Shown here: piece after piece, positions 1,568 through 22,181 of the stretch
Layout: each line of letters opens with the position of its first letter
How positions within the stretch are numbered: position 1 is the first letter of the stretch
Assembly (NCBI GenBank): GCA_022571295.1
Contig: JACZYA010000006.1
Location: 1 to 54,583 of the forward strand
DNA from: Acidobacteriota bacterium
Lineage (GTDB): Bacteria > Acidobacteriota > Terriglobia > Acidiferrales > 2-02-FULL-67-57
Reading direction: 5' to 3'
Length of the DNA: 54,583 nucleotides
Translations under genes and position numbers: made by a program
The notes under the pieces: generated by a model
Told to the model about the DNA's origin: nothing
Database searches by the model: none
What the model saw: only the letters and a program-made list of their open reading frames with translations

Positions 1568-3073
1568 ATGCCGATTGAGCTGACCGGCAACAACCTGACC
1601 ACCGAGCAGTTCCGCCGCGTCGTCTTTGACAGCGAGCCGGTGGCACTGGCTGCTTCCGCCCGCACGGGCGTCGAGCGCTCGCGCGCTTTGGTGGAGCAAC
1701 TGGTGGCCGAAAACAAAGTCGCCTACGGAATCACCACCGGCTTTGGCGACTTGGCCCGGGTGCGCATCCCGCCCGACCAACTGCGCGCGCTGCAACTGAA
1801 CCTTATCCGCAGCCACGCCAGCGGCGTGGGCGCCCCGCTGAGCGAAACCGAAAGCCGCGCTACGCTCCTGCTGCGCGCCAACGTCCTGGCCAAGGGACTC
1901 TCGGGCGTGCGCCCGGTGCTGCTGGAAACCTTGCTGGCGATGCTGAACCACGGCGTGCATCCGGTGATTCCCTGCCGGGGCTCGGTGGGCGCCAGCGGCG
2001 ACCTGGCTCCGCTGGCTCATTTGGCGCTGGTGCTGGTGGGCGAGGGCGAAGCTTTTGTTGACGGCCAACGCATGAAGGGCGGCGATGCGCTCAAGAAGGC
2101 GCGCATCCAACCCATCACCCTGGAAGCCAAGGAAGGCCTGGCGCTCATCAACGGCACCCAGCCCACCCTGGCCCTGGGCGTGCTGGCGCTGCTGGAAGCC
2201 GAGAACCTGGCTGACACCGCCGACGTCACCGCGGCGCTTTCACTCGACGCGCTGCGCGGCACGCCCGTCGCCTACGATGAGCGCATCCACGCCGCCCGCC
2301 CCATCCCCGGCCAGCAGCAAACGGCGCGCAACCTCGCCCGCCTGCTGGAAGGCAGCGAAATCCGCGAGTCGCACAAACAGTGCGACCGCGTGCAGGATGC
2401 CTACTCCATCCGCTGCACCCCGCAGGTGCACGGCGGCGTGCGGGAAGCGATCGCGTATGTGCGGCGACTCTTTGAAATCGAGCTCAACAGCGGCACCGAC
2501 AACCCGCTGGTGTTCGCCGAGCAGGGCGAGGTCCTCTCCGGCGGAAACTTCCACGGCGCGCCGCTGGCGCTGGCGTTGGACGTGCTCGCCATTGCGCTGG
2601 CGCAACTGGGCAACATCAGCGAGCGGCGCACCGAGCGGCTCATCAACCCCGCTTACAGCGAGCTGCCCGCCTTCCTCACCCGCAACCCGGGCGTGAACAC
2701 CGGCTTCATGATGGCGCAGGTCACCGCCGCCGCGCTGGTCTCGGAGAATAAAGGCCTGGCGCACCCGGCCTCGGTTGACTCCATTCCCACCAGCGGCAAC
2801 GAAGATTTTGTCTCCATGAGCATGGGCGCGGCGCTCAAGGCCCGCCAGGTGGCCGACAACGTCAGGACCATCCTGGCGGTGGAGCTGCTGTGCGCCTGCC
2901 AGGGCATTGACCTGCTGGCCCCGCTCAAGACCAGCCCCGCCTTGCAGCGCGCGCTGGCCGCTCTGCGCAGCCGCGTCCCGATGCTCGAAGCCGACCGCGA
3001 ACTCGCCCCCGACATCGAAGCCGCCCGCCAGCTCATCTCCGGAGAAGTATTTCAAAAAATATTGATTGGATAG
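1568..3073 (+). CDS. hutH: Histidine ammonia-lyase
   Basis: A 501-residue enzyme of the aromatic amino acid lyase family. It removes ammonia from L-histidine to give urocanate, the first step of histidine degradation. The tripeptide Ala142-Ser143-Gly144 in GSVGASGDLAPLAH would cyclise to the MIO prosthetic group. The catalytic Tyr53 region (YGITTGFG) and the QDAYSIRC-type segment (here VQDAYSIRCTPQVHG) are present, and the length is typical. The signature fits HAL better than phenylalanine or tyrosine lyases. No hutU, hutI or hutG lies nearby, so the rest of the pathway must be elsewhere. The downstream gene converges, with only 9 bp between stop codons. Confidence 0.95.
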   Translation: MPIELTGNNLTTEQFRRVVFDSEPVALAASARTGVERSRALVEQLVAENKVAYGITTGFGDLARVRIPPDQLRALQLNLIRSHASGVGAPLSETESRATLLLRANVLAKGLSGVRPVLLETLLAMLNHGVHPVIPCRGSVGASGDLAPLAHLALVLVGEGEAFVDGQRMKGGDALKKARIQPITLEAKEGLALINGTQPTLALGVLALLEAENLADTADVTAALSLDALRGTPVAYDERIHAARPIPGQQQTARNLARLLEGSEIRESHKQCDRVQDAYSIRCTPQVHGGVREAIAYVRRLFEIELNSGTDNPLVFAEQGEVLSGGNFHGAPLALALDVLAIALAQLGNISERRTERLINPAYSELPAFLTRNPGVNTGFMMAQVTAAALVSENKGLAHPASVDSIPTSGNEDFVSMSMGAALKARQVADNVRTILAVELLCACQGIDLLAPLKTSPALQRALAALRSRVPMLEADRELAPDIEAARQLISGEVFQKILIG

Positions 3074-3082
3074 AAACGGCTT

Positions 3083-3877
3083 TCAGTTGTTCATTGCGCT
3101 GCGTGAGGCAATGATCCTTTCCGCTTCCCGAAGCCCTGAGGAAAGGAGTTTTATATTCCCAGTACCATCGTCATCTACGAAACGTCCAATCCTCCCTAGA
3201 GCTACATCGGCGTTGTGCTCCTTAACGATGTGTCTCAGCATAGCTTGTTTGACTTCGCGCTTATTAATTCTCCTGGGATAATTACGCCAAAGGACAGCAA
3301 GTGCTATTTCGCGGGCGCTGGCATCTTTTCCATGGAAATAGACTCTCCCATCAACCTCTTTAAACAATGGGTACTTTCTTTCCGTTAGACCTTCCACCAG
3401 AGCTTTCGCTGCTTCCGGGGCTAACCCTCGCTGCGAGAAGCGCACCATCTCTGCAAGTATCCAAGAGCAGACCGAAACAGAAACAGAGGCATCCATCTCG
3501 TTTGGGTCGATCTCTCCAGAGTCGTGTCTACCTCCCCGGTTGCTGGCAATGTCATAAACGAACCTGCACGCACGAGGGATAAGCAACTTGACGGTGTCGT
3601 CACAGCAACTCTTGTTGAGCTGTCCTAGCTCTTGGATGAGCTTGTTAACTGAGAACTCCCTAGATCGCGGGACCGTCTTGCCACAGTGCACAAACAAAGC
3701 TTTCAGCACGGCCTCCACAAACTTGCCAGCCTTGCCCATACTGTCTTCCCACGAACTGACCTGAAATCTCTCGACCATCTTCCTAAAATGCTCCAGCGCG
3801 GCCCGCACATGCTTTGTGTCAAACGAGCGCGCCAGGCATTTCTCAATACTGATCTCTGAACTCACGAGTTCTCTCAC
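3083..3877 (-). CDS. HEPN/abortive-infection C-terminal-like protein, last gene of the accessory cassette
   Basis: A 264-residue protein of unknown function. The GTG at 3877 is chosen because it overlaps the preceding stop as GTGA and has GGAGG 4 bases upstream; a GTG at 3901 lacks a ribosome site. The first 150 residues are helical. Residues around 105-130 contain RACRFVYDIASNRGGRHDSG followed by MDASVSV and a hydrophobic helix. This layout (helix, RN-x-G-x-H turn, helix with WILAELVR-like end) recalls the abortive-infection C-terminal and HEPN-like families, but the spacing is R-x3-H rather than the usual R-x4-6-H. The C-terminal third (KYPLFKEVDG onward) looks like a small winged-helix. 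No membrane segment is visible. It is the final gene of an operon of small wHTH-like proteins. Confidence 0.7.
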   Translation of the reverse strand: MRELVSSEISIEKCLARSFDTKHVRAALEHFRKMVERFQVSSWEDSMGKAGKFVEAVLKALFVHCGKTVPRSREFSVNKLIQELGQLNKSCCDDTVKLLIPRACRFVYDIASNRGGRHDSGEIDPNEMDASVSVSVCSWILAEMVRFSQRGLAPEAAKALVEGLTERKYPLFKEVDGRVYFHGKDASAREIALAVLWRNYPRRINKREVKQAMLRHIVKEHNADVALGRIGRFVDDDGTGNIKLLSSGLREAERIIASRSAMNN

Positions 3878-4293
3878 TGCGCCTCCAATAACTCTACCCA
3901 CTTTGGCCGAAGTACGTAAACACCTTGCTTCCTGCTGTCAGCCCAACCATACTCCTTCGCCTTATTGGGATACTTGCCATTGAACTTGCCGCCGAGCAGC
4001 GCCGTCATTTTGTTCCAGGATTTTTCGATGATCTTGACTTCGATCTCCTTGTCACAGTTTCCCTTTGCGAAATACGCTAACAGCAAGGAAAATTTCTTTG
4101 GACCACTCAGTCCGCCAGCATACTTCTTCGCGAAAGCCCGTTCATTCATATCGAAATCGAGGCGTTGCACGCTCCGAGCTGCAGGCGGAGGGGTTTTGAC
4201 ATGCCTCCTAACTCTCTGCGGAACGGGCGAAAGCATGACTTCACCCTCAAACTGGTTGCCATTTTCGTCGCTAACGCTGATTCTTGCTTTCAT
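3874..4293 (-). CDS. Small winged-helix-like protein (cassette protein 3)
   Basis: A 139-residue protein. The first 25 residues form a short beta-rich segment (KARISVSDENGNQFEG). After a basic Pro-rich linker, residues about 50-137 have the pattern of a winged helix: FAKKYAGGLSGPKKFSLLLAYFAKG, then IEKSWNKMTALLGGKF, then NKAKEYGW and a KQGVYVL wing with a KWVELLE end. AGGAG stands 5 bases before the ATG, and the stop overlaps the next start as GTGA, so both are translationally coupled. The 17-bp gap to the gene before places it in the same transcript. I know no function; DNA or protein binding is an inference from fold pattern alone. Confidence 0.7.
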   Translation of the reverse strand: MKARISVSDENGNQFEGEVMLSPVPQRVRRHVKTPPPAARSVQRLDFDMNERAFAKKYAGGLSGPKKFSLLLAYFAKGNCDKEIEVKIIEKSWNKMTALLGGKFNGKYPNKAKEYGWADSRKQGVYVLRPKWVELLEAQ

Positions 4294-4309
4294 GAGAACT
4301 CCTGGCCTC

Positions 4310-4750
4310 CTAGGTCTGCACGTACGCTAACGCCCCCTTCTTGCCTTGACCATGTTCTACTCTGCGCAGCTTCTTTTTCCGGGCTAGGCGAAGGAGACTC
4401 ATGCGAATGTCGGCTCTGTTGTGGTGATAGCCTTTCACGCGCAGCGTGTGTCGAACTTGGTCCGGCAAACGTGGCTCGGAAAAGAATCCTTCCCTTTCTA
4501 GCTCCATGATGCGTGCCTGGGTCCCAGAAGGACCAATTCCGCCATCTAGCTTGTCGCTCACAGGGCCGGCCTGCCTGTCCCGAGGAGCGGCGGGCTTCCC
4601 CCCAGAGACTTCCTCCAGAATTCGCTGGAATAACGGTCCAGCAAGAGCAATCCGCAACTGTTTTTCCTTTACCCGCGAAAGGGCCGGTCCGATTTGCGGC
4701 GCGTATTTGCGTGCAGCATCAAGGATGGCTTTGACCTTTTCCTCTCCCAT
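4310..4750 (-). CDS. Small winged-helix-like protein (cassette protein 2)
   Basis: A protein of 146 residues if translation starts at the ATG at 4750, which lies 7 bases after GGAGGAG; an in-frame ATG at 4756 is only 1 base from that site and is unlikely. Residues 1-50 are helical. A variable Gly/Pro/Asp-rich linker follows, and residues about 75-146 read ARIMELEREGFFSEPR, then VRHTLRVKGYHHNRADIRMSLLRLARKKKLRRVEHG and YVQT. This is a helix-turn-helix followed by a basic wing, a pattern I have seen in small uncharacterised proteins. It is preceded by promoter copy A within a 158-bp duplicated segment, and its first residues (MGE) match those of the upstream 164-residue protein. Confidence 0.7.
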   Translation of the reverse strand: MGEEKVKAILDAARKYAPQIGPALSRVKEKQLRIALAGPLFQRILEEVSGGKPAAPRDRQAGPVSDKLDGGIGPSGTQARIMELEREGFFSEPRLPDQVRHTLRVKGYHHNRADIRMSLLRLARKKKLRRVEHGQGKKGALAYVQT

Positions 4751-4899
4751 CACCATACTCCTCCGTCAGTGGTTACTACCCGAACAGCCTACATTATCTG
4801 TTCGTTATCTGTCAAGCCCACCCAGCGCAACTTCATGACTGTTCCGTCCTACGACCGACTGCCACCTTTGAACCCTTCCTCAACTGCCGACTCACCGGT
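4742..4899. repeat. 158-bp direct repeat, copy A
   Basis: Positions 4742-4899 and 5335-5492 match at 155 of 158 bases with no gaps; the differences are a/g at 4775, t/c at 4840 and g/a at 4886 (copy A/copy B). The unit covers, in minus-strand order, the last 16 codons and stop of a gene, an intergenic region with promoter and palindrome, the ribosome site and the first codons of the next gene. Copy A includes the real 3' end of the 164-residue gene. Confidence 0.95.
4781..4815 (-). promoter_or_regulatory. Promoter with overlapping operator-like palindrome, copy A
   Basis: On the minus strand TTGACA (4815-4810) is followed after 18 bp by TAGGCT (4791-4786), a plausible -35/-10 pair about 25-30 bases before the start codon. 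A perfect inverted repeat, CGAACAG-N10-CTGTTCG (4781-4804), covers the -10 and part of the spacer. On the plus strand TTATCTGT occurs twice (4794-4801 and 4805-4812) at an 11-bp period, about one helical turn. Such placement fits repressor binding. The palindrome resembles the CGAAC/GTTCG halves of a Gram-positive LexA box, but the spacing is far too long for it. Confidence 0.55.
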
Positions 4900-5343
4900 C
4901 CCGGTGAGCAACCAAGCCTTTTTCCCTTTTTTCTTTTGGGAAGCCGGTTCGATTTTTCCTTTCCTAATATTCTTGTTGACCGAATCATTCACGTTCACGG
5001 GAACACCAATCTTCATCCGATCAAAACACCGGTCGAGGTCGTCCACATTAAACATGTCCAGACCTTCCACAACTTCAAGGAAGTAGCCGACCGTAAGCAC
5101 CTTTTCGGCATCCGTCCTTGGTATCTTTTCTGCAAACAATTCACCAACACTCAGTTTCTTTGGCCGAGAACGGCGGGGCATATCCGCAACTGAGGCATGG
5201 GCCACTCCTCCAGTTGCCCCCAGCAGGTACGCAATAAGAACTCCTAGGTACGTTTCGCCCTTCCGATTCTTTGCGCTGAACTCAGCCCGCTTAGCCTCCG
5301 CAATCGCCGCACTGATGAACTCTTTGCTGAATTTCTCTCCCAT
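4849..5343 (-). CDS. Small winged-helix-like protein (cassette protein 1)
   Basis: About 164 residues from the ATG at 5343, which is 7 bases after GGAGGAG; the ATG at 5349 is too close to the site. The first 60 residues are helical and end in a basic linker (MPRRSRPKK). Residues about 65-155 read LSVGELFAEKIPRTDAEKVL, TVGYFLEVVEGLDMFNVDDLDRCF, NVNDSVNKNIRKG, then KKGKKAWLLTGTGESAVEEGF. This parallels the third cassette protein (helix, YFL/YFA helix, N-x4-K turn, K-x-WLLT/VYVL wing), so they probably share a winged-helix fold. A promoter in repeat copy B drives it. Function is unknown. Its last 16 codons are duplicated upstream in copy B. Confidence 0.7.
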   Translation of the reverse strand: MGEKFSKEFISAAIAEAKRAEFSAKNRKGETYLGVLIAYLLGATGGVAHASVADMPRRSRPKKLSVGELFAEKIPRTDAEKVLTVGYFLEVVEGLDMFNVDDLDRCFDRMKIGVPVNVNDSVNKNIRKGKIEPASQKKKGKKAWLLTGTGESAVEEGFKGGSRS

Positions 5344-5373
5344 CACCATACTCCTCCGTCAGTGGTTGCTACC

Positions 5374-5408
5374 CGAACAGCCTACATTATCTGTTCGTTA
5401 TCTGTCAA
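5374..5408 (-). promoter_or_regulatory. Promoter with overlapping operator-like palindrome, copy B
   Basis: The same elements as in copy A occur 593 bp later: TTGACA (5408-5403), TAGGCT (5384-5379), the CGAACAG-N10-CTGTTCG palindrome (5374-5397) and the two TTATCTGT boxes. None of the three mismatches between the copies falls in these elements, so two transcripts of the cassette are probably under the same control. Confidence 0.55.
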
Positions 5409-5441
5409 GCCCACCCAGCGCAACTTCATGACCGTTCCGTC

Positions 5442-5492
5442 CTACGACCGACTGCCACCTTTGAACCCTTCCTCAACTACCGACTCACCGGT
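5442..5492 (-). pseudogene. Stranded 3' end of a lost paralogue of cassette protein 1
   Basis: The minus strand here encodes TGESVVEEGFKGGSRS and a stop, identical to the end of the 164-residue protein except for one Ala-to-Val change. No matching body lies upstream, where similarity ends at 5492. This is the tail of a former tandem paralogue, removed by deletion or left behind by unequal crossing over. Confidence 0.75.
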
Positions 5493-5565: not shown

Positions 5566-6576
5566 TTATGCGAGGCTGCGGCGGAGGAAGGGGATGAAGC
5601 GGAGGCCGGCCCACCAACTGAAAGGGAAGTTGGCGAGGGTGTAGTGCCCGCAAGGCAGGATCAACAGTTGATGTGGAATGCTCAGCTCCTCCATCCGCTC
5701 CCACAGCAGGCGGGAGAGATCGAAAGGAAACGTCAGGTCGTAGCGCGCCGACACCAGCAACATGGCCGGCTCCCTGCCCCGCAAGCGCCCGACATAAGGA
5801 AAGGGACTGATCGGCATCCAGAGCTGGCGCAACTCTTCGGCGCTCACCTGCGACGCCAGTCCCTCCCACACGTGCGAGGTCAGCATCCCCCGGCTGACCA
5901 CGTCCGCGAAGTAGGTGGAGACGTGCAGGAAGACGCCCGCGCGCAGCGCCGGCTCGTGCGCCAGCGTGATGTAGGAGACCGAGGAGCCGATGCTGGTTCC
6001 CAGGATGCCAATCCGGGTGTAACCCTGCTGCTCCAACCAACGCACCGCCCGGCGCGCGTCCAGCACCGCCTGGCGCGACGCCTGCAAGGTCAGTCCGAGG
6101 TTGGGGCTCACCATCGGGTCGGCGCGCTCGTAGCCGGCGGGCTGGCGCTGGTCGTGGTAGGGCAGGCTCAACCGCAAAGCGCTGACCCCGAAGCGGCGCA
6201 GGAACCGGCAAATGCTGACGTGACTCTCGGGCTGAGCGTTCCACGGCGGCAGCAGCAGCACCGCACGCCCTTCGGGGCGCTCCGCCGGGAACCAGCGTGC
6301 GTGGACAGTGTTGTTTTCGGGAAAGGACGACTCAATCGCGCTCGGAAAACGGAGCAGGTCTCCGTCGAGCTTGTACCACTCCGCCGCCTCGGTGGCGAAG
6401 AAGCTCTCGCTGCCCTCCAGCGCCTGGCGGGAGTAGCTCTGGAGAAACTGGCGCGGGTCGTCGCGGGCCGGGTCGCCGCCCAAGTGCTCGATGCCCCACT
6501 CAAACGGGTAGGTGACGCGGCGGTTCTCGCGCGCCCAGTGTGCGCGCTCGATGGAATGAATCCAAGCTTTCAGCAT
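5566..6576 (-). CDS. Alpha/beta hydrolase, ABHD18-like
   Basis: About 336 residues from the ATG at 6576; a TTG at 6621 would add 15 poorly supported residues. The nucleophile elbow GTSIGS gives the catalytic Ser. The Asp of SARYDLTFP and the His of PCGHYTLA complete the triad in the expected order. PPWNAQPESH before the elbow resembles the oxyanion-forming segment of ABHD18/DUF2048 proteins, where an HG-type motif is replaced. There is no signal peptide, so it is probably cytosolic. The substrate is unknown. It lies 174 bp after the M16 pair on the same strand and may be transcribed with it or from its own promoter. Confidence 0.8.
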   Translation of the reverse strand: MLKAWIHSIERAHWARENRRVTYPFEWGIEHLGGDPARDDPRQFLQSYSRQALEGSESFFATEAAEWYKLDGDLLRFPSAIESSFPENNTVHARWFPAERPEGRAVLLLPPWNAQPESHVSICRFLRRFGVSALRLSLPYHDQRQPAGYERADPMVSPNLGLTLQASRQAVLDARRAVRWLEQQGYTRIGILGTSIGSSVSYITLAHEPALRAGVFLHVSTYFADVVSRGMLTSHVWEGLASQVSAEELRQLWMPISPFPYVGRLRGREPAMLLVSARYDLTFPFDLSRLLWERMEELSIPHQLLILPCGHYTLANFPFSWWAGLRFIPFLRRSLA

Positions 6577-6750
6577 GAATACCGATGAGACCAACCGCAA
6601 AGAGATACGCAAGAGCCGCAAAGTTTAGCTGTGGGTGCGATGAACCGTCAAGGTAAGAGCAAATGAATGGGAAGCAGGCGCGCCCGGCGTCTTCGAGCGC
6701 GGCCTCAACAATCTTTTCCCCCGACAGAGACCGCAAACGGCGAAGCGCAG

Positions 6751-8580
6751 CTATTCTTTTCTCTTAGCGGTCCACTCCAGGCTGAGTTGGCCCACCTGCA
6801 TCGTCCCCTTCATCGTCCCGCCGTCCACGCTGCCGCTGTACTCGACCATGCGTTCGCCCCGCGGCGTCTGGCGCGTGACGGCAAAGCTGATCGAGTTCCC
6901 TTTGACCGATCCGGTCAAGGGCGCTTCGCCACCCCGCCGGGCGGCGAATGTGCCGGTCAGAGTACCGCCGTCCTGTGCCAGCCTCAGCAATCTCGTGATC
7001 GACCCTTGCGGCCCCAGCAAGGTCAACTCCCATTCACCCGCCACCTCCGCCGGTGGCCCGGCCTCGGCGGCCTCTGTGGCGGCCACGGCCTCTTCAGCCA
7101 CCGGATTGCCCTCGGTGTCGTACACCTCAACCGGACCATAGGCTTCCATGATCTCCTTGATCTTTCCGGCGTTGCCCACCGCCACCACCTGCATGGTGTC
7201 GAGGTTGAGGTAGGTGCGGGCCACGCGCTGCACCTCGGCGGCGGTCACGGCCATGAGCTTGGCGGGATAGGTGTCCCAGTAGTCCTCCGGGAAGCCGTAA
7301 ATCTTGATGGTGCGGGCATAGCTCAAGAGTTGGGTGGGCCGCTCCAGCGAGAGCGCGAAGTTGGCCACCATGGCCCGCTTGGCCTCCTCCAGTTCCTTCT
7401 CAGGCACGGCCTCGTCCCGGATGCGCCCCAGCTCGTAGAGGAACTCCGTCATCGCGCCTTCGGTGACTTCGGTCCGCAACGACCCGCCCACGCGCCAGGG
7501 GCCGGGATACATCAAAGCAGTGAAGGAGCTGGACACGCCGTAGGTGTAGCCCTTCTCCTCGCGCAGGTTCAGGAACAGCCGCGCCGCCGGCCCTTGTCCG
7601 AGCACGCGGTTCATCACCACCATCGGGATGTAGTCCGAGTCGCGCCGGTCGATGGCAATGTTGCCCATCGTCAGGCTGGTCTGCACCGAGTTGGGCCGAT
7701 CCACCACATAGACCTTCTTGGCGGGAACCGGCGTGGGATTCGGCGGCAACTTGATCTCCAGCTCAGTTCGCTCCCACTCCCCCAGCCACTTCTCCAGCTT
7801 CGGGAGCAAGTCGGACGCGCTGACATCGCCGGCAAAGCTCAGGATGGCGTTCTGCGGGGCATAGCGCTCCCGATGCCACTGGGCCAATGCCTCAGATGTG
7901 AAGGCGTCCACCGACTCGGGAGTCGCCGACCGGACAGCAGCAGGATGGTCGCCGTACACCGCCCGGTTGAAGCGCTCGCTCACCAGGAAGTCCGGCGACG
8001 AGCGCTGCTGGCGCAAACTGGCCTTGAGCCGCTGCTTGAGCTTGTCCAGCTCGTCGGCCGGAAAGGCGGGATGGAGCAGCACGTCAGTGAACAGCGCGAA
8101 CCACTCTTCGAAGTTGTCGCTCAGCCCGGAAGCGCTGATTGCCGACGCAGCCGACCCAAACGAAGAAGAGGCACCCAGGGTGGCACCCAGCCGCGCCACT
8201 TCCTCGGCGATTTGCCGGCTCGTGCGCGTCTGCGTGCCTTCGTCCAGCATCTGCGCGGTCACCACCGCCAGCCCCGGCAGGTCGGACGGCTCAAACAGCG
8301 GCCCGGCGCCGGTGATGCTCAGATTCACCGACACCGCCGGCAGGCGGTGGTCTTCCATGATCAGCACGGTGAGACCATTCTTCAGAGTCGCTTCCACCGG
8401 CCGGGGCAGTTTGACGCGCAGGATTTCCTTCGACACCGGCGCCAAGCCCTTGCGCTCGACCTTGCTGACCGATACGGCCTTCGAATCCTGACCCGGTGCC
8501 TGCGCCCACCCGGGCGCGCACACGGTCACCAGTAGCGCAGCCGCCAAGAGGTACGGCAGGAAAAATTTTCTGCTCTTCAT
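6751..8580 (-). CDS. M16 peptidase-like subunit without zinc motif, fused to a C-terminal beta-rich domain
   Basis: A 609-residue exported protein with a signal peptide ending AQA at about residue 27. Residues about 60-470 hold the two tandem M16 (insulinase/processing peptidase) domains. The HxxEH zinc motif is missing: the equivalent helix reads GLAVVTAQMLDEG. The Arg/Tyr segment of the second domain (LREEKGYTYG) is kept. This is the pattern of the non-catalytic partner in two-subunit M16 enzymes. Residues about 505-609 form a separate strand-rich domain (GEWELTLLGPQG, LTGTFAARRGG, SISFAV, YSGSVDG, MKGTMQ), similar to lipocalin-like units found at protein ends in Acidobacteria. The catalytic subunit gene ends 22 bp upstream. 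Confidence 0.9.
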   Translation of the reverse strand: MKSRKFFLPYLLAAALLVTVCAPGWAQAPGQDSKAVSVSKVERKGLAPVSKEILRVKLPRPVEATLKNGLTVLIMEDHRLPAVSVNLSITGAGPLFEPSDLPGLAVVTAQMLDEGTQTRTSRQIAEEVARLGATLGASSSFGSAASAISASGLSDNFEEWFALFTDVLLHPAFPADELDKLKQRLKASLRQQRSSPDFLVSERFNRAVYGDHPAAVRSATPESVDAFTSEALAQWHRERYAPQNAILSFAGDVSASDLLPKLEKWLGEWERTELEIKLPPNPTPVPAKKVYVVDRPNSVQTSLTMGNIAIDRRDSDYIPMVVMNRVLGQGPAARLFLNLREEKGYTYGVSSSFTALMYPGPWRVGGSLRTEVTEGAMTEFLYELGRIRDEAVPEKELEEAKRAMVANFALSLERPTQLLSYARTIKIYGFPEDYWDTYPAKLMAVTAAEVQRVARTYLNLDTMQVVAVGNAGKIKEIMEAYGPVEVYDTEGNPVAEEAVAATEAAEAGPPAEVAGEWELTLLGPQGSITRLLRLAQDGGTLTGTFAARRGGEAPLTGSVKGNSISFAVTRQTPRGERMVEYSGSVDGGTMKGTMQVGQLSLEWTAKRKE

Positions 8581-22105: not shown

Positions 22106-22181
22106 TGGTGGACGGGAGGGGATTCGAACCCCCGACCTCCGCAGTGCGAGTGCGGCGCTCTCCCAACTGAGCTACCCGCCC
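22106..22181 (-). tRNA. tRNA-Ala(CGC) with encoded CCA
   Basis: The minus strand folds as a 76-base tRNA: acceptor GGGCGGG with CCCGTCC, D-arm TAGCTCAGTTGGGAGAGC, anticodon stem CCGCA/TGCGG with loop CTCGCAC (anticodon CGC, reading GCG) and T-arm with GGTTCGAATCC. The G3:U70 pair, the alanine identity element, is present. Discriminator A73 is followed by an encoded CCA. Confidence 0.96.

Follow-up and report, generated by a model that had tools for sequence, protein, structure and literature searches.

We analysed a 54,583-nucleotide stretch of an Acidobacteriota bacterium genome (assembly GCA_022571295.1, contig JACZYA010000006.1, positions 1 to 54,583, forward strand), referred to below as the window, and focused on a cassette of four minus-strand genes (genes 1 to 4) near its start. 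The features of the cassette are collected in Table 1. A sequence-only reading of this DNA had placed four minus-strand genes there and described them as AT-richer than their neighbours. The open reading frames (ORFs), spanning 3083-5343, confirmed the placement, and the compositional contrast was found both in GC content (0.50-0.57 in the four genes versus 0.65-0.68 in the adjoining genes) and in GC content at third codon positions (GC3; 0.56-0.59 versus 0.84-0.86 in the flanking genes). These results indicated that the four genes are real genes and, judged from its sequence, that the cassette is a foreign, evidently recent import. Genes 2 to 4 had also been described as coupled; the GTGA overlap between genes 3 and 4 was observed as described, and the gap between genes 2 and 3 was 16 bp instead of the 17 bp given.

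Table 1. Features of the four-gene cassette and its insertion site in the window.
Feature	Coordinates	Strand	Length	Description
Inserted segment	3074-5565			between hutH (1568-3073, +) and a hydrolase-like gene (5566-6621, -)
Gene 4	3083-3877	-	264 aa	HEPN-like bundle at about residues 2-148, followed by a beta hairpin and, at the C-terminus (about 188-263), a MarR-like winged helix; GTG at 3901 also in frame
Gene 3	3874-4293	-	139 aa	N-terminal beta hairpin, disordered linker, C-terminal winged helix (AlphaFold2 model)
Gene 2	4310-4750	-	146 aa	small protein, basic and winged-helix-like; fold assigned by pattern and position
Gene 1	4849-5343	-	164 aa	partner-type protein; C-terminal module shared with partners of other gene-4 homologues; alternative ATG 6 bp further upstream
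161-bp repeat, copy 2	4739-4899	-		last codons of gene 1, 98-bp intergenic promoter/operator region, first codons of gene 2
161-bp repeat, copy 1	5332-5492	-		orphan copy of the gene-1 3' end, same promoter region, first codons of gene 1
Palindrome CGAACAG-N10-CTGTTCG	4781-4804			candidate operator before gene 2, with a minus-strand TTGACA at 4810-4815
Palindrome CGAACAG-N10-CTGTTCG	5374-5397			candidate operator before gene 1, with a minus-strand TTGACA at 5403-5408

The structure of protein 4 was modelled with AlphaFold2 from a 14-row alignment (pLDDT 87.3), and the model consisted of a helical bundle, a beta hairpin and a C-terminal winged helix. When the model was searched against the PDB with Foldseek, four of the six best fold matches were HEPN domains (1ufb, 2hsb, 1o3u and 3o10), with a target TM of 0.55-0.62 and a Foldseek probability of 0.98-1.00, and the C-terminus matched MepR/MarR-type regulators. 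These results supported a predicted architecture of an N-terminal HEPN bundle followed by a C-terminal winged helix, and agreed with the earlier description of a HEPN-like protein with a wing-like C-terminus. A PDB sequence search with protein 4 returned weak eS19 winged-helix matches only. None of proteins 1-4 had a significant match in Pfam, NCBIfam, PADLOC or PHROGs, and the best matches of the cassette proteins in PADLOC-DB v2.0.0 reached only E 0.015-0.022, without significance. Profile searches for HEPN and Abi_C had been proposed in the sequence-only reading; Pfam HEPN (PF05168) was indeed the nearest family of protein 4, at a score under the cut-off (E 0.049; 14.2 bits, cut-off 22), and the cassette proteins had no match to the Pfam or PADLOC models of Abi_C or AbiJ. 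We take the motif RNKRxxxH to resemble Abi_C motifs. The AbiEii nucleotidyltransferase was likewise not matched by any of proteins 1-4 in the Pfam and PADLOC profile searches.

The motif of protein 4 (IASNRGGRHDSGEIDPNEMD) reads A110-S-N-R114-G-G-R-H118 and not RNxGGRH, as had been read before, so that Ala110 stands where the Rx6H motif of HEPN domains expects Arg. R114-G-[GA]-R-H118 was kept in all six sequences of the clade that contains the window (the window clade), which formed one starred branch of the tree (98/95). Across the 14 rows of the alignment, E55, Y108, R114, H118, D129, W139, E143, R146, L193 and G248 were invariant, and E55 lies in helix 2 in an E-x3-K context (E55-AVL-K59). 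Previous work has reported that HEPN domains carry an Rx4-6H motif with a polar residue after the R and a conserved acidic residue often found as Ex3[KR], and that some HEPN families lack the R of the motif while keeping the H (PMC3710099). Because such families exist, the loss of the Arg in protein 4 settles its activity neither way. The missing Arg weakens the case for RNase activity more than that for membership of the HEPN fold, and a simple RNase effector is therefore not to be assumed for the window clade. The change in the motif coincided with a switch from one partner gene to the pair of genes 2 and 3, the upstream side of one locus (L013) being cut off. Relatives of protein 4 at 40-55% identity were found in Terriglobia, Aminicenantes, Nitrospira and Saganbacteria, and remoter ones in other Acidobacteriota, Nitrospirota, Pseudomonadota, one viral contig and an archaeal plasmid. 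A search of viral contigs with three alignments gave a single relative (L043), and no cassette relative was found in phage records. Among plasmids, protein 4 had a single relative (L014) and protein 1 a single, weak match, both of them archaeal.

The AlphaFold2 model of protein 3 had a pLDDT of 78.9, with values above 90 over most of the C-terminal domain, and its fold search returned weak winged-helix matches. A winged helix-turn-helix (wHTH) had been proposed for all three small proteins; the structure model supported this for protein 3, and the assignments of proteins 1 and 2 come from homology or pattern. A PDB sequence search with proteins 1 and 2 gave nothing useful, and protein 2 showed a very weak AbiEi profile match (E 0.015). 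Using jackhmmer with shuffled decoys, we found that gene 1 and the partners of the sister clade join one superfamily, and that genes 2 and 3 form two separate families. No homology between the three partner types was detectable with hhalign, and the common layout ascribed earlier to proteins 1 and 3 received a probability of 0.4%. Protein 1 was 36% identical over 94 aa (pair E 2e-20) to the C-terminal module of a fusion protein (L048, 616-1953), in which an AbiEii toxin encoded behind AbiEi is joined to a hairpin/winged-helix module like protein 1. A similar fusion to AbiEii was observed in L049 (622-1953). We know of no earlier description of this architecture. Relatives of the partner module that stand alone and have long basic tails were also observed (L061, L062, L065 and L055), those in L061, L065 and L055 adjoining acyl-CoA dehydrogenase-like genes; these are perhaps a chromosomal DNA-binding protein.

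A small partner gene was located directly upstream of the effector gene in 11 of 11 intact loci, with a gap of -29 to +15 bp. The count leaves aside L035, whose partner gene has an internal stop codon and is located some 0.6 kb before the effector, L014, the archaeal locus, where an 82-aa hairpin-like ORF lies downstream of the effector, and L013, which is at a contig end. The region 9500-10900 of L035 appears to be a decaying cassette copy with an apparent truncated duplicate of the effector start. Homologues of gene 3 were found directly upstream of gene-4 homologues in L009, L010 and L011/L012, and homologues of gene 2 upstream of those of gene 3 in L009 and L011/L012. The order 2-3-4 is thereby conserved in L009 and L011/L012, as a unit in Terriglobia and Nitrospira, with 3-4 in Aminicenantes. 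L010 combines a gene of the gene-3 type with a 128-aa gene of no assigned type, and L011/L012 carry a second gene-2 copy behind the effector. Effectors of the sister clade have a single partner each, which is of the gene-1 type or carries a hairpin at its N-terminus. All three partners occurred together only in the window, so the expectation that the genes travel together held for genes 2-3-4, or for one partner with gene 4, which is the conserved unit, and failed for the four as a set. As to defence neighbours, one relative adjoins NotI and a D12 methylase (L037) and another adjoins Vsr and a C5 methylase (L013). Directly behind the L010 cassette (6880-8194), a second module was observed that encodes a 162-aa partner and a 279-aa protein; the latter has a winged-helix-like N-terminus and an RNGCGH motif (HEPN-like, in reverse domain order), and the module gave a weak CARF/HEPN profile match.

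The 161-bp repeat is direct, with 4 mismatches between its copies. We prefer to explain its anatomy by a tandem duplication of the gene-1 unit, after which the upstream copy largely disappeared. Since the repeat is shared, genes 1 and 2 start from near-identical promoters, and in both promoters a perfect palindrome lies downstream of a TTGACA. Its core, GAACAG-N10-CTGTTC, occurs at only two sites in the 3.24-Mb genome, both within the repeat, and for that reason the box of a global, LexA-like regulator was rejected as an explanation of the palindrome. A generic sigma-70 scan did not report the promoters of the repeat, in which TTGACA is present and the -10 element is poor. The repeat was also considered as an att site or a recombination-cassette site and rejected as either; no tRNA or recombinase was found in or beside the cassette, and the only tRNA of the window is at 22106-22181. 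The repeat is about as long as a short read and the assembly has 287 contigs, so it may be a misassembly.

The inserted segment lies between genes named hutH and hydrolase from reading the sequence, not from a family search. In family relatives with an intact junction (L090, L091), the corresponding genes lie tail to tail at 59-64 bp, and in order-level relatives the gap is 84-209 bp, compared with 2.49 kb in the window. In this gap, a third family member (G897, L093) carries a toxin-antitoxin-like pair at 1128-1754, in which a small antitoxin-like gene comes before the gene of a Fic/Doc protein (Pfam Fic, E 3.5e-13). A fourth member (G898, L092) has there an unrelated 2.1-kb insert (about 840-2935), with a 40-bp repeat of the 3' end of the hydrolase gene on either side. 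These varied inserts indicated that the junction is a small insertion hotspot and that the cassette is an insertion. Cassette relatives were sparse, being found in 6 of 297 genomes of the same phylum and in 2 of 349 and 3 of 246 genomes of two other phyla (the last count omits one short fourth fragment). In L009, the cassette has on either side a copy of a 218-bp repeat, which overlaps a tRNA-Pro gene (3' part of the gene). L011 and L012 were 96.9% identical in the cassette region versus 87.9% in the flank, and the rate of nonsynonymous substitution was below the synonymous rate (dN < dS) in all four genes, with few substitutions. L011 (contig NZ_JAHBZY010000036.1) is labelled Nitrosomonas; because outside the cassette it aligns at 88% to L012, a Nitrospira locus, the label is doubtful and the contig is probably mis-binned. 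Two C-terminal-only matches (G124, G234) were read as metal-regulator-like or other winged-helix proteins and were rejected as cassette relatives.

The cassette was then compared with described systems. It resembles HEPN toxins (HEPN/MNT, Abi2/AbiF/AbiD, AbiJ and AbiU2; PMC3710099) in the HEPN bundle detected by fold match, the helix-2 Glu in Ex3[KR], the Rx6H of the sister members, the small upstream partner gene and the operon coupling. It differs from them in that it has no nucleotidyltransferase partner, its effector carries a C-terminal winged helix, its partners are hairpin/winged-helix proteins, the window clade has Ala for the motif Arg, and no Pfam, NCBIfam or PADLOC model matches significantly. 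In AbiE, an upstream wHTH antitoxin represses its own promoter through inverted repeats (PMC3985639), and this type IV toxin-antitoxin (TA) system would be the nearest worked-out parallel to the autorepression proposed here. AbiEi/AbiEii and the cassette have in common the upstream winged-helix protein, the downstream effector and the inverted-repeat operators (here candidates), and the gene-1-type module is fused to AbiEii in L048 and L049. The cassette effector, however, is HEPN-like and not a nucleotidyltransferase, and both the AbiEi C-terminal domain and AbiEii are absent. CapS is a wHTH repressor bound to a wide palindrome with 10-bp spacing (PMC13373217). Controllers of this type resemble the cassette in the winged-helix gene upstream of an immune-type operon and in the 10-bp-spaced palindrome, whereas the cassette has no STAS domain or kinase partner, and its partner lies inside the coupled operon. 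The feature of type II TA systems, a DNA-binding-like gene directly upstream of and coupled to the effector, was present in all 11 intact loci. No named family in Pfam, NCBIfam, PADLOC or PHROGs covers the cassette, and a limited full-text search of the open-access literature found no published description, which does not prove absence; this agrees with the sequence-only reading, whose author knew of no described system of this composition. Taken together, the cassette is real, conserved, so far unnamed and of recognisable kind, and its HEPN motif and multi-winged-helix composition are unusual.

We give about an even chance to the explanation that, as a whole, the cassette is a horizontally acquired, self-regulated TA or abortive-infection-type cassette. 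From the computed gene structure, foreign origin, two fold models, partner-effector pairing and operon coupling, we infer complex formation, repression, toxicity and defence as follows. Protein 4 would be the effector, with its HEPN bundle, a fold of many RNase toxins, joined to a winged helix of its own. Its partners would be the small winged-helix proteins encoded upstream, namely 3 and 2, and probably 1; they would be translated just before protein 4, and would bind protein 4, the cassette's own promoter or both, and so keep protein 4 silent. The operators would be the two palindromic promoters, one before gene 1 and one before gene 2. An invader or stress may disturb the complex and release protein 4, in which R114/R117 and H118 may form an altered active site, or the HEPN domain may bind rather than cut.

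Several observations weigh against this explanation, and some of them favour a serious, purely regulatory rival. In that rival, which we hold as possible at well below an even chance, the cassette is a mobile transcriptional-regulator cassette. Protein 4 would be a HEPN-derived, non-catalytic scaffold for dimerisation or nucleic-acid binding, and proteins 1-3 would be co-regulators; the cassette would have no toxin and would act on its own promoters and perhaps on host or mobile-element genes. Winged helices are present or apparent in all four proteins, and the Rx6H Arg is lost across the whole 2-3-4 clade, being Ala in 6 of 6 window-clade sequences, with R-x6-H in 9 of 9 sister sequences. The Foldseek E-values of protein 4 were weak (0.08-0.5, best 0.08). 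Relatives of the gene-1 partner also stand alone in non-defence contexts (L050, L055, L062, L065), and since the partner superfamily occurs alone beside ordinary genes, the module is not by itself diagnostic of defence. Proximity to defence genes, foreseen in the sequence-only reading, was seen for part of the relatives (L037, L013, the AbiEii fusion and the Fic/Doc pair at the insertion site), and a phage-defence candidate gene (PDC-S05) also lies close to the cassette of the window; restriction-modification adjacency was limited to L013 and L037, and most relatives lie among ordinary genes. Shuffling gave p about 0.03 for such an inverted repeat, which is only mildly unusual, so the operator is a good candidate and not a demonstrated one; most relatives lack a counterpart of the palindrome upstream, and both copies trace to one duplication. 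A regulatory role, on the other hand, would lead one to expect a wider regulon, and none is visible, as the candidate operator has no other site in the genome. The sister clade retains the full Rx6H motif, R114-G-[GA]-R-H118 is fixed across phyla at 40-55% identity, as for an active site, and the restriction-modification and AbiEii links also argue against a purely regulatory cassette.

In a further rival, several mobile small genes would have been stacked by chance at a hotspot, without a joint function of all four; gene 1, next to the 2-3-4 unit, would then either have arrived separately or be the duplicated remainder of a cassette with a single partner. In its favour, the same hutH/hydrolase site is used by other inserts, gene-1-type partners pair with Rx6H-clade effectors (L033, L038), the 2-3-4 clade elsewhere has no gene 1, and gene 1, which has a promoter of its own, has the 161-bp repeat at both ends. 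The repeat, however, gives genes 1 and 2 a common promoter, candidate operator, ribosome-binding site and start codons, so that the two genes are probably co-regulated, and gene 1 belongs to the partner family of gene-4 homologues and not to an unrelated family. We consider chance stacking unlikely.

A bolder form of the defence explanation, which we rate as rather improbable, is a distinct HEPN-centred class. Here a HEPN-winged-helix protein with a re-drawn active site (R-x3-H plus an adjacent Arg for Rx6H) would form one complex with winged-helix subunits, two or three in number and interchangeable, by which DNA of the invader is recognised, and the recombinogenic promoter repeat would let specificity subunits come and go. 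It is very unlikely, in our assessment, that the winged helices of proteins 2, 3 and 4 sense invading DNA directly in one complex and then trigger HEPN against RNA: the multi-winged-helix composition is conserved, and wHTH-based recognition of invading DNA has been proposed in parallel for giant HEPN proteins (PMC3710099), but the same anatomy is expected of an autoregulated TA system, and the complex and trigger are hypothetical.

If the TA or abortive-infection explanation is true, an unnamed cross-phylum HEPN family with winged-helix partners joins the TA/abortive-infection repertoire. The two sister clades differ in their partner sets, and only one of them keeps the canonical HEPN Arg; they would then be a natural test of how the chemistry of HEPN effectors changes with their partners. 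That one small partner module is tied to toxins of both the HEPN and the AbiEii type suggests a shared principle of control.

The altered HEPN Arg, the 161-bp repeat, the palindrome and one gene at the start of the window had been missed in the sequence-only reading. This gene (28-801, +) is AT-rich (GC3 0.45), encodes a PLD-like protein matching the PADLOC phage-defence candidate PDC-S05 (E 1.2e-31), and lies 2.3 kb from the cassette. On the viral contig, the cassette relative (L043) is near a Peptidase S24 (UmuD/LexA-like) gene and a DUF3800 gene, and tandem repeats of about 51-52 bp were observed near the Peptidase S24 gene at 7481-7932.

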